Shown: piece by piece, positions 3,564 through 54,126 of the stretch
Layout of the letters: each line of letters begins with the position of its first letter
Numbering within the stretch: the stretch's first letter is position 1
From: Planctomycetota bacterium
GTDB lineage: Bacteria; Planctomycetota; PLA2
Direction: 5' to 3'
Length of the DNA: 64,000 nt
NCBI GenBank assembly: GCA_021776785.1
Contig: JAJFFF010000012.1
Coordinates: forward strand, 1 to 64,000
Translations under genes and position numbers: made by a program
Notes under the pieces: generated by a model
What the model was told of the DNA's origin: nothing
Databases searched by the model: none
The model's input: only the letters and a program-made list of their open reading frames with translations

Positions 3564-3823
3564 CGGCAACAGCATCCACCAGCGCCGTGTGGGACTAAGT
3601 GGTTGATCCCGAAACAAAAAAAGTGGGCGCCGCGCGGCCAAGGTTCACCGTCCCCGCCTCAACAAGGCTTGGCGGCGCAAGACCGACGGTAGGCTCCCGT
3701 TTCGAGAAAGTATCGGATCACCGAACTGTGATGCCCATCACGAACGTAGCAGACGCATCGTTTGCCATCTTACTCCTTCGGTCACATCGAGGACTATCCT
3801 GGAGTGGAGACGAACTTGTTCGG

Positions 3824-13530: not shown

Positions 13531-13555
13531 CGGAGGGCTGAGCGCGCTCAACAAG

Positions 13556-13656
13556 TCTCAACGCCGTCAGACGTTGAACCAAAAAACACCGTCTCAACGC
13601 CGTCAGACGTTGAACCAGAAAACACCGTCTCAACGCCGTCAGACGTTGAACCAAAA
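13556..13656 (-). repeat. 36-bp tandem repeat, 3 units, each forming a UGAC-tetraloop hairpin
   Basis: Plus: GTCTCAACGCCGTCAGACGTTGAACCAAAAAACACC repeated; hairpins at 13558-13577, 13594-13613 and 13630-13649 (minus: TCAACGTC-TGAC-GGCGTTGA). Confidence 0.92.
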
Positions 13657-13661
13657 AGTCA

Positions 13662-15434
13662 CTACTGGTCCGCCAAACGGATCGAAAGTTCTTCGAGCTG
13701 TTCGACGTCAACGGGGGAAGGCGATCCACTCATCAAGTCGACCGCCTTGGCCGTCTTGGGGAACGCGATCACGTCGCGGATGCTCGGCACGTCGCTCAGC
13801 AGCATGGCCAAACGATCCAGTCCGAGCGCGATCCCGCCGTGCGGCGGCGCGCCGTACTGCAACACATCGAGGAGAAATCCGAAGCGTTCCTGGGCGACGT
13901 CCTCGGGGATCTTCATCGCGCGAAAGATCGATTCCTGCACCGCGCGGCGGTGGATACGAATCGAGCCGCTCCCCATTTCGACACCGTTGAGGACCGGGTC
14001 GTACGCGAGCGCGCGCGCCTTGCCGGGGTCGGCTTCAACGAGTCCGAGGTCCTCTTCCACCGGAGCGGAAAACGCGTGGTGCGCGGGCGCCCACTCGCCT
14101 TCTTGGTCGCCCGCCAAAAACAGCGGGAAATCTACGATGAAGCACGCGGCCCAGGCGCCCGGCGCGATCAGGCTTTGCTTTTCCGCAACGGCCAGGCGCA
14201 CGTTGCCGAGGCTCCACGCCACCACGCCGACGTCCGTATCGGCAACGAACACCAAGAGGTCGCCGGCTTCCGCGCTGAACGCGGCCGGAAGATCGCTGCC
14301 CTCAAAGAACTTCGCGATCGGTCCGGTCACGCCGTCTTCGGTGACCTTCATCCACGCCAAGCCTTTGGCGCCGTGCTCGGCCGCCGACGCTTGGAGCCCG
14401 TCGATTTCTTTGCGCGAAAGCGCCGCGCCGCCGGGCACGCGGATGCCACGCACCGCGCCGCCCCCTTCCAGCGCGCCGGTAAACACCTTGAACGAGCAAT
14501 CCTTCACGACCTCGGAAACGTCTTGAATCTCAAGCCCGAACCGAAGATCCGGCTTGTCACTGCCGTAACGCGCCAACGCCTCGTGATACGGAATGCGCGG
14601 CCACGGACGCGGAAGATCGGTGGGATGTTTCGCGACCTCTTTGACGAGACCGGTCAAGAGCTCCTCGATCAGACCAAGGACGTCCTCTTGCTCAACAAAC
14701 GACATTTCCATGTCGAGTTGGGTGAACTCCGGTTGGCGATCCGCGCGCAGATCCTCGTCGCGAAAACAGCGCGCGATCTGGTAGTAACGGTCGTACCCCG
14801 CGCACATGAGGATCTGCTTGTAGATCTGCGGCGCCTGCGGCAGCGCGTAAAAACGTCCCGGGTGAAGGCGGCTCGGCACGAGGTAGTCGCGCGCGCCCTC
14901 CGGCGTCGCTTTCGCCAGGATCGGAGTCTCAATCTCCACGAATTCGCGCGCGTCGAAAAACTCGCGGATGTAGCGGTTCATGCGGTGACGACGCAGGATG
15001 CGGTCCTGCGGTTCACTTCGCCGGAGGTCGAGCGGTCGATACTTGAGCCGAACCTCTTCGGAGATTTCGTCGCCGCCCGCGATCTCAATGGGCGGAGTCG
15101 GCGAGGTGGACAACACCTCGATGTGGGTCGCGATGATCTCAATCGCGCCGGTCGCAAGCTTGTCGTTTTGCGCCGCGTCCGGGCGCGACTTAACCACGCC
15201 GCGCACACGCACGGTGTACTCCGGTTTCACCGACGACGCGACGTCGTGACTGGCCGCGTCGTCATCGCGGCTCACACTCACTTGGGTCAGGCCGTACCGG
15301 TCGCGCACGTCCAAAAAGACAAGGCCGCCCTGGTCGCGGCGGCGATGCACCCATCCGGCGAGAGAAACTTCCTGGCCGGCGTCGGCTGCGCGGAGTTCTC
15401 CGCAGGTGTGGGTTCGGTACGCGGTCTGAGTCAC
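13662..15434 (-). CDS. aspS: Aspartate--tRNA(Asp/Asn) ligase
   Basis: [52 protein letters not shown]...; GTG start at 15434 inferred within ORF 13662..15941. Confidence 0.95.
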
Positions 15435-27061: not shown

Positions 27062-27375
27062 CAGACCCCATTGCGGGCCCCCCATTGCGGGCCCCCCATT
27101 GCGGGAGCACAAATGCGCAAATGCGGGACCCGCAAATGCGGGACCAGGTTCCTGTGGATAACCTCATAAGTTGCGTGTTTGCAATGCGTTGTGACGGGCG
27201 CCTGCGGGATTTTTCGCGCAAAAATAGGCAAATCAGCCGGTTTTTGGCGGAAATTGCGCGCAAAATCCCGCAACCCGCCGCCACAAGCCAGGTCCCCTCA
27301 ACACGTTACGGAGTTATCCACAGGAACCTGGTCCCGCATTTTGGGTCCCGTGGTCCCGCATTTTGGGTCCCGCAT
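27062..27375. repeat. Concentric palindromic element with DnaA-box-containing arms and iteron-like repeats
   Basis: 29-bp perfect arms 27134-27162 / 27313-27341 (AAATGCGGGACCAGGTTCCTGTGGATAAC); nested arms 27204-27221 / 27254-27271 (17/18); GGTCCCGCATTT(T/G) and CCCCATTGCGGGCC repeats on the outside. Confidence 0.88.
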
Positions 27376-52746: not shown

Positions 52747-53063
52747 TCCACCCTAACCGTCGCGTGACCCAAGTCGAGCAGCTCGTTAGGCCGGGAAGTC
52801 CGGCCCACTGAAGGGCGGGCCGGAAGGCCGAGGTCAGAGGAGCCTTCGTTGTTCGCGCGCCGGACGGCTCAGTGTTCGGCTGTCGTTGTGTGTACGCACA
52901 ACCCCGCCTTCGCCACGGCTACGGCGGGTCGTCCGCGCCTCGCGAGAACGACAACTCATTCGCCGCACGCACAACCCGCGCGACGCAACGAACACCCAAA
53001 GCCAAGCCGCCAGAGGCGACGAGGCGCGCCCAAAGGCATGCCAAACCGATCGAACGTCGGGCT

Positions 53064-53083
53064 ATGACATCGTCAGATGTCAT
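53064..53083 (-). repeat. Hairpin A1
   Basis: ATGACATC-GTCA-GATGTCAT, perfect 8-bp stem. Confidence 0.9.
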
Positions 53084-53091
53084 GCACCGCG

Positions 53092-53111
53092 TCAACATCG
53101 TCAGATGTTGA
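53092..53111 (-). repeat. Hairpin B
   Basis: TCAACATC-GTCA-GATGTTGA, perfect 8-bp stem; 5' flank on the minus strand CTGGCTCAAC matches the aspS array CTGGTTCAAC. Confidence 0.9.
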
Positions 53112-53159
53112 GCCAGAGATACTGCACATAAGGCCTTTGGTCACATGCCTCGGCAGACG

Positions 53160-53186
53160 AAAAAGGGCCGCACAACCGTGCGACCC
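53160..53186 (-). terminator. Second copy of the rpsG terminator
   Basis: AAAAAGGGCCGCACAACCGTGCGACCC, identical to 53598-53624. Confidence 0.75.
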
Positions 53187-53335
53187 TCTTGGATCGTAAG
53201 CAAAGCGAAAAGTTGTGCGTCCGCCCAACAAGAACCCGCACGCACAACTCACGCCCGAATCGAACACCCCGGGCCAAGCCGCCAGAGGCGACGAGGCGCG
53301 CCCAAAGGCATGCCAAACCGCCCAAACGCCGAGCT

Positions 53336-53355
53336 ATGACATCGTCAGATGTCAT
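53336..53355 (-). repeat. Hairpin A2
   Basis: ATGACATC-GTCA-GATGTCAT. Confidence 0.9.
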
Positions 53356-53533
53356 GCAGAGAACACATAAGAAGTTCAGGCACTTCGCTCGCGGTACGAA
53401 AAAAGGCCGCCTTGTGCCTACGCACAACAAAAAACGAGCGCACAACTCACGCCCGAATCGAACACCCAAAGCCAAGCCGCCAGAGGCGACGAGGCGCGCC
53501 CAAAGGCATGCCAAACCGATCGAGCGACGAGCT

Positions 53534-53553
53534 ATGACATCGTGAGATGTCAT
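53534..53553 (-). repeat. Hairpin A3 (loop variant)
   Basis: ATGACATC-GTGA-GATGTCAT; loop UCAC on the minus strand. Confidence 0.9.
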
Positions 53554-53597
53554 GCAGGAAACACATAAGGCCTTTAGCCACTTTGCCTCGGCAGACG

Positions 53598-53624
53598 AAA
53601 AAGGGCCGCACAACCGTGCGACCC
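53598..53624 (-). terminator. Rho-independent terminator of rpsL-rpsG
   Basis: Minus: GGGTCGCAC-GGTT-GTGCGGCCC-TTTTT. Confidence 0.85.
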
Positions 53625-53652: not shown

Positions 53653-54126
53653 CTACCAGGCAAAGTGGCTAAAGGCCTTATTGGCCTCCGCCATCTTATG
53701 AACGTTCTCACGAGTAGTCATAGCCCCACCCTCACCGTTGTACGCGGCGATCAACTCGTCGGCCAACGCGCGGGCGATCGGGCGGCCCTTCTTGCCTCGT
53801 GCGGACGTCAAGATCCACCGGACCGCGAGCATCTGCGCGCGGCGGCGGTTCACTTCCATCGGCACCTGGTACGTCGCACCACCGACGCGCTTGCTGCGCA
53901 CCTGGATCATCGGCTTGACGTTGTTCAGTGCTTGCGTGAACACCTCAAGCGGGTCCTTGTCCTTCATGCGGCCTGCGATGATATCGAAGGCGCCATACAC
54001 CGCTGCTTGCGCGGTGGATTTTTTGCCGTCGCGCATGACGGAGTTGATGAACTTGCCCAACAACTTGTTGTTGTTTTGGGGATCCGGCTTGAGGTAGCGC
54101 TCGGTTGATTTGTAGTTACGCGGCAT
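53653..54126 (-). CDS. rpsG: 30S ribosomal protein S7
   Basis: MPRNYKSTERYLKPDPQNNNKLLGKFINSVMRDGKKSTAQAAVYGAFD... Confidence 0.97.
   Translation of the reverse strand: MPRNYKSTERYLKPDPQNNNKLLGKFINSVMRDGKKSTAQAAVYGAFDIIAGRMKDKDPLEVFTQALNNVKPMIQVRSKRVGGATYQVPMEVNRRRAQMLAVRWILTSARGKKGRPIARALADELIAAYNGEGGAMTTRENVHKMAEANKAFSHFAW

Follow-up and report, generated by a model that had tools for sequence, protein, structure and literature searches.

REP-like structured repeats behind co-oriented genes and tRNAs in a Planctomycetota lineage: candidate RNA hairpins of 3' trailers

Two hairpin arrays behind rpsG and aspS

The analysed window is a stretch of 64,000 nucleotides from a genome of the phylum Planctomycetota (5.0 Mb in 57 contigs, denoted G000). 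Two of its genes, aspS and rpsG, are each followed by an array of short hairpins in the same orientation. The features are as follows; R1 is the covariance model of the unit described below.

13558–13577, minus strand: aspS array, hairpin A copy TCAACGTC-UGAC-GGCGTTGA (R1 match 13545–13591, E 3.3e-9)
13594–13613, minus strand: aspS array, second hairpin A copy (sequence and R1)
13630–13649, minus strand: aspS array, third hairpin A copy, 12 nt past the aspS stop codon (R1)
13662–15350, minus strand: aspS, class II aminoacyl-tRNA synthetase with a GAD domain, co-oriented and upstream of the array at 13.6 kb (Pfam; start from a home-made gene caller)
52999–53097, minus strand: full unit of about 100 nt, with linker, hairpin A, middle and hairpin B containing CGCC-UCU-GGCG (R1, 84.2 bits, E 3.3e-21)
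53064–53083, minus strand: hairpin A copy ATGACATC-UGAC-GATGTCAT, the first of the initial annotation
53092–53111, minus strand: hairpin A copy TCAACATC-UGAC-GATGTTGA, labelled B in the initial annotation, with the linker CTCTGGC before it on the minus strand
53271–53368, minus strand: full unit of about 100 nt (R1, 85.5 bits, E 1.4e-21)
53336–53355, minus strand: hairpin A copy ATGACATC-UGAC-GATGTCAT
53469–53566, minus strand: full unit of about 100 nt (R1, 84.5 bits, E 2.6e-21)
53534–53553, minus strand: hairpin A copy with a UCAC loop, ATGACATC-UCAC-GATGTCAT
53598–53624, minus strand: terminator-like hairpin with a T tract (GGGTCGCACGGTTGTGCGGCCC-TTTTT), in the gap that separates rpsG from its array
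53653–54126, minus strand: rpsG, ribosomal protein S7, co-oriented and upstream of the array (Pfam PF00177, E 9.8e-57)

The initial annotation had listed seven hairpins, and all of them lie where it placed them, with the sequences it gave (plus-strand starts 53064, 53092, 53336, 53534; 13558, 13594, 13630). The A-U to G-C change and the U·G wobble that it described in the aspS copies are both real. At that, its seven copies are not seven independent cases: the three ATGACATC copies sit in a locally duplicated unit of about 100–150 nt (three copies, spacing 272 and 198), and, being parts of one local duplication, are counted here as one lineage. The terminator-like hairpin GGGTCGCACGGTTGTGCGGCCC-TTTTT likewise has a second copy at 53160–53186, within an exact 66-nt duplication. 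The aspS array has a tandem period of 36 bp.

Another short palindrome, GTTGTGTGTACGCACAAC, adjoins the arrays at 52886–52903 and 53412–53428 of the window; it is also found at L065:2315, with flanks common to both genome places. Elsewhere in the window, a 6S RNA gene occupies positions 3569–3758 of the minus strand (Rfam RF00013, 71 bits), and the region 27066–27372 contains direct repeats of 14–15 bp (CCCCATTGCGGGCC, CGCAAATGCGGGACC) facing the repeats TGGTCCCGCATTTTGGG, with a DnaA-box-like TTATCCACA on both sides; this region is possibly a replication origin.

Structure of the repeat unit

Read on the strand with the TGAC loop, the copies align over about 100 nt. The 8-bp hairpin proposed initially as the element is real but forms only one part of this unit, which consists of a linker, hairpin A, a bulge with additional pairs, a middle region and a second hairpin, B. 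The linker is T-rich, similar to GTGTTTYTTGG, and the consensus of hairpin A is YCAACATC-TGAC-GATGTTGR. After hairpin A come a one-base bulge and RCY; the latter pairs with GGY before the hairpin, so that the stem is extended by 2–3 pairs. Further on are the conserved middle, TTGACGTTCG..CGGTTTGGC, and hairpin B with the apex CGCC-TCT-GGCG. In tandem, the units are either full-length or trimmed to hairpin A (spacing 29–36 nt). Among copies that neighbour each other within 400 nt, 74 pairs share a strand and no pair is split between strands; neighbours are always direct repeats. At one place (region L035:16436–16500), short repeats of the type CACGTCAAGT have arisen by expansion of the stretch beside one hairpin.

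The loop is nearly invariant. In the sense reading, UGAC is observed in 117 of 126 copies, UCAC in five, and UAAC, UGAU, UGAG and UGGC in one copy each; hence 123 copies have the UNAC-type loop, as suggested initially.

Copy number

The sequence TCAACRYCGTCAGRYGTTGA, with up to three mismatches, has four matches in the window, compared with 0.05 expected. In the whole genome the exact core ACRYCGTCAGRYGT has 123 matches, and a reversed-pattern control has none. The covariance model yields at least 146 matches in this genome and 96 in a genome of the sister genus (G002), and thus the hairpins indeed form a dispersed family. In 808 kb of G000, the GTCA/TGAC loop accounts for 89 of 154 perfect hairpins with an 8-bp stem and a 4-nt loop, the next most common loop being seen four times, although this ratio is enriched, as the 808 kb were selected around the copies. 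The idea that these are chance palindromes is already refuted by the excess of matches in the window, the empty control, the loop excess and the covariance-model copies, and we assign it a negligible probability.

No Rfam family matches over the arrays at the gathering threshold; the best hit of one search (35.7 bits, with a cut-off of 90) lies outside the units. Literature searches on planctomycete intergenic repeats returned nothing relevant.

Covariation and the probable strand of action

Over 17 pairs in 46 units, 95.9% of the cells are paired. Changes on both sides are observed at nine pairs and in 61 cells, compared with 4.3 pairs and 17.8 cells in shuffled alignments, and none of 500 shuffles reaches these values. 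All slid registers score far lower than the true one. Hairpin A thus has the property expected of a structured cis RNA, stem covariation exceeding both types of controls, and the paired changes postulated in the initial annotation are upheld. Both controls leave the relatedness of copies in, and the independent events are fewer than the cells, since much of the covariation at pairs 16–38 and 17–36 reflects two subtypes. In the pairing of RCY with GGY, columns 16–38 of the alignment contain CG in 26 units, TA in 15 and TG in two, and columns 15–39 are GC in 44 of 46.

Hairpin B behaves differently. Its outer stem shows no covariation beyond the apical pairs, and the energies of the real arms are no better than those of chimeras made from arms of different copies; we therefore rejected hairpin B as a long covarying stem. 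Helix B has 43 cells with G·U on the sense strand, compared with four where G·U would be formed only on the other strand, although some of these pairs may simply have been fixed in an ancestral copy.

Taken together, the fixed orientation, the direct repeats, the sense UNAC loop and the G·U bias favour action as RNA. They bear directly on an explanation at the DNA level, by which the element is a site at the ends of busy transcription units, similar to the gyrase-binding BIME/REP sequences of enterobacteria, and the palindrome, bound as a duplex, relieves supercoils or blocks runaway polymerase. The position behind heavily used genes and tRNAs and the clusters of one to five copies agree with such a site. 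However, a duplex-bound palindrome gives no reason for a fixed orientation, a UNAC loop or sense-biased G·U pairs, and the inverted pairs of the BIME type are absent; hence we consider this explanation improbable.

Position relative to genes

Genes were identified by a home-made codon-usage caller and ARAGORN, and the orientation was measured on stretches around the copies. The copies form 52 clusters of one to five, and the upstream feature is known for 50 of them. When these are read with the loop as UGAC, 44 come immediately after a gene or tRNA of the same orientation (binomial p 3e-8), which bears out the initially suggested orientation bias relative to genes. One of the exceptions, at L061:11154, has a Gly-rich frame, missed by the caller, that ends just upstream in the same orientation. 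Two clusters overlap a weakly supported predicted frame, and no copy is clearly inside a gene. Hence, none of the outcomes named in the initial annotation as refuting it (no further copies, no covariation, no orientation bias) has occurred.

The genes upstream of the clusters in G000 include rpsG, aspS, infA, frr, ssb, trxA, mreB and dnaB, as well as genes for an OmpA-type protein, OprB porin, a transketolase-type protein, transaldolase, thiolase and FBPase. At least ten of the 48 tRNA genes of this genome have the element behind them on their own strand, as judged by comparing their positions with those of the copies. The codon bias of the host genes differs little from that of other genes (p 0.018). 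The initial suggestion of a structured RNA or 3'-UTR repeat therefore holds with respect to the family, its covariation and its orientation, but the element is not confined to 3'-UTRs of mRNAs, being present also behind tRNA genes and, in one other MAG, in the 16S–23S rRNA spacer.

The median gap between the upstream feature and the cluster is 44 nt, and in 13 of 44 cases it does not exceed 30 nt. This proximity, together with the T-rich linker included in the unit, could suggest that the element itself is the transcription terminator of the upstream genes. However, the T-rich stretch is situated 5' of hairpin A, on the wrong side for a canonical terminator, and no T tract follows the hairpin, the next sequence being RGMCTTTGACGTTCG; thus the element lacks the attributes of an intrinsic terminator. 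Moreover, in the array between 16S and 23S rRNA described below (L078), termination would cut the operon. The terminator explanation is accordingly very improbable.

Canonical terminator-like hairpins are found within 100 nt at 12 of 40 element-bearing 3' ends, compared with 20 of 306 others (p 5e-5), and such a hairpin often stands before the element. Given this order, the RNA of the element may often be present only in read-through transcripts. In one case (L059:9664–9820), a single hairpin A copy stands immediately behind a c-di-GMP-I riboswitch aptamer, with a terminator-like hairpin between this copy and the next gene.

Relatives and distant occurrences

The covariance model finds no copies in the other three genomes of the family, nor in the other twelve genomes of the order; the family's other two genera lack the repeats. 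In the sister-genus genome G002, the linker (AGTGTYTTYTGGY) and hairpin A are retained, while the second module is different: it consists of hairpin stems such as GCTTAGCGG/CCGCTAAGC, GGTTGGCGG/CCGCCAACC and GTTTCGCGG/CCGCGAAGC with a loop like RGGAA, situated 34–42 nt further on. In five of the G002 loci (L135, L136, L138, L143, L154), the hairpin A that goes with this covarying second hairpin and its RGGAA-like loop is of the TCAACGGC type. The orientation bias in G002 is weaker, 27 of 38 clusters being behind a co-oriented feature, with a few weak matches included; the host genes include those of EF-G, EF-P and DnaK. Four orthologous positions are common to G000 and G002, namely those behind rpsG, infA, the gene of a 105-aa protein and the OprB porin gene, compared with about 0.26 expected for a random draw from about 4000 genes, a null model that ignores a preference for busy genes.

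At larger distances the occurrences are scattered. The core with the GGY linker is present once in each of two genomes of a distant family, 60–90 nt behind tRNA-Met (L166, L167). In the latter place (genome G165, region L167:1501–1620), the single core copy is flanked by inverted copies of a tRNA 3' end. In Planctomycetota MAG-27 (L105), an array lies 13–16 nt behind tRNA-Phe, and in L093 the core follows tRNA-Ser and a terminator-like hairpin. Finally, a contig binned as Oligoflexia (L078) has three tandem copies between 16S and 23S rRNA, with a covarying stem (ATC/GAT to CGC/GCG); transcription is expected in this spacer. Contigs with rRNA are often misbinned, and hence the host label of L078 is uncertain.

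Other exact matches were set aside. A viral origin was rejected, as the exact 20-mer is found in five viral stretches, all without the GGY linker. Most matches outside the phylum (Paenibacillus, Pseudomonas, Eubacterium, Bowmanella, Bacteroides) lie in one common sequence context resembling a conserved coding stretch, and those in Bacillus, Rhizobiales and Marinicaulis have no linker.

The patchy distribution also fits a mobile repeat, and the main rival of the 3'-trailer RNA reading is a selfish palindromic repeat of the REP or MITE kind, inserting in one orientation and preferably downstream of terminator hairpins and of genes for stable RNAs. If so, the position and orientation would reflect target choice, and the paired changes would arise because the hairpin is recognised as single-stranded DNA. 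This agrees with the conserved core scattered over distant bacteria, with the abundance of copies (hundreds in two genera) next to close relatives that have none, with the association with terminator hairpins, and with the copies at contig ends and in tandem arrays. On the other hand, no dedicated enzyme has been found. Mobilisation by RAYT is not supported: none of the five Y1 transposase loci of G000 has such a hairpin in the surrounding 1.8–3.3 kb, Y1 (REP-type) transposase genes are present also in element-free relatives, and G165, although it contains a core copy, yielded no Y1 transposase. Further, several of the 13 copies starting within 30 nt of a gene end are too close to it for a target terminator to fit in between, the two genera have four orthologous positions in common, and the G·U asymmetry points to sense RNA. 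We consider the selfish repeat possible, though less likely than the RNA reading.

Interpretation

The element has many copies, a stem with paired changes, a sense UNAC loop and an arrangement in direct arrays, and it is situated behind co-oriented housekeeping and tRNA genes and, in another MAG, behind 16S rRNA. From these features we infer an action at the RNA level, within the 3' trailer or the read-through transcript that extends from the upstream gene; most likely, the element is a 3'-trailer hairpin of sense-strand RNA. Its presence in the rRNA spacer and in tRNA trailers speaks for a function in 3' trailers or processing rather than in termination.

In the proposed mechanism, the sense transcript would fold, behind the T-rich linker, into hairpin A with its bulged stem and UNAC-type loop, and a putative protein or RNase would recognise it. 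At genes in heavy use, such recognition may assist in setting or processing the 3' end or in preventing read-through. Tandem duplication would enlarge the arrays, and the second module seems to be exchangeable between genera.

Hence our tentative conclusion, to which we assign somewhat less than an even chance, is that one Planctomycetota lineage has its transcription units marked on the 3' side by a family of REP-like structured repeats, and that these act in the 3' trailer as RNA hairpins which a 3'-end factor recognises. A broader version is possible but doubtful: several bacterial groups would use the bulged UNAC hairpin as a dedicated 3'-trailer RNA signal, placed directly behind genes for tRNA, rRNA and housekeeping functions and recognised by a putative 3'-end processing or termination factor, and one Planctomycetota family would have amplified it to hundreds of tandem modules in which the second hairpin can be exchanged.

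Palindromic repeats are a common feature downstream of genes, and it has long been asked whether they work as DNA or as RNA, or are selfish. In the present family, the fixed orientation, the direct arrays, the strand-specific loop and G·U bias, and the placement behind tRNAs and in an rRNA spacer yield unusually sharp predictions for 3'-end mapping. If the preferred reading is true, this is a transcript-end element of Planctomycetota with no description in Rfam or in our literature searches.

Comparison with known repeats and loops

BIME clusters of E. coli are hairpin clusters behind genes with alternating orientation. The clusters considered here are also hairpin clusters behind genes, but each has a single orientation. 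The similarity to hairpins with UNAC or UMAC loops, such as phage boxB RNA, is limited to the tetraloop, which is UNAC; neither an N-like protein nor antitermination is known to accompany our repeats, and the likeness is in the loop type alone. UNAC and UMAC loops have been discussed as GNRA-like (PMC12550061). Integron attC sites were set aside as well: CCAAC/GTTGG resembles the R boxes, but the element is far too short and is not located between gene cassettes.

The GTAG REP/RAYT systems (PMC3733652) are similar in being palindromic, dispersed and intergenic, behind genes, but GTAG is absent from the 12 most common tags, which together account for 118 of 126 copies.

Of the described classes, the CGTC-1 REP family (PMC3733652) comes nearest to our repeats. 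Both have an 8-bp stem with a 4-nt loop, a CCA tail (in the GTCA reading, RCCA is present in 95 of 126 copies, as GCCA in 50 and ACCA in 45), and many copies, mostly 3' of genes, without a dedicated transposase. The unpaired 5' tag CGTC (or TGTC, CCTC) is, however, not characteristic of our repeats: CGTC precedes seven of 126 copies, the most common tags being AGCT (36), AGTC (19) and GGTC (19). Stem positions 1–2 are A-T pairs in CGTC-1, while here they are TC in 60 copies, CC in 48, AC in 13 and AT in three. CGTC REPs form mainly head-to-head inverted dimers, head-to-tail ones being negligible (Di Nocera et al. 2013, PMC3733652), whereas our tandem copies are only direct, and our hairpin belongs to a unit of about 100 nt with a second hairpin. 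The five phyla listed with CGTC repeats do not include Planctomycetes (PMC3733652, Results). Thus, the element is REP-like in that it is an extragenic palindrome situated behind genes, and CGTC-1 is its closest relative in form, but it should be filed neither as a CGTC nor as a GTAG REP.
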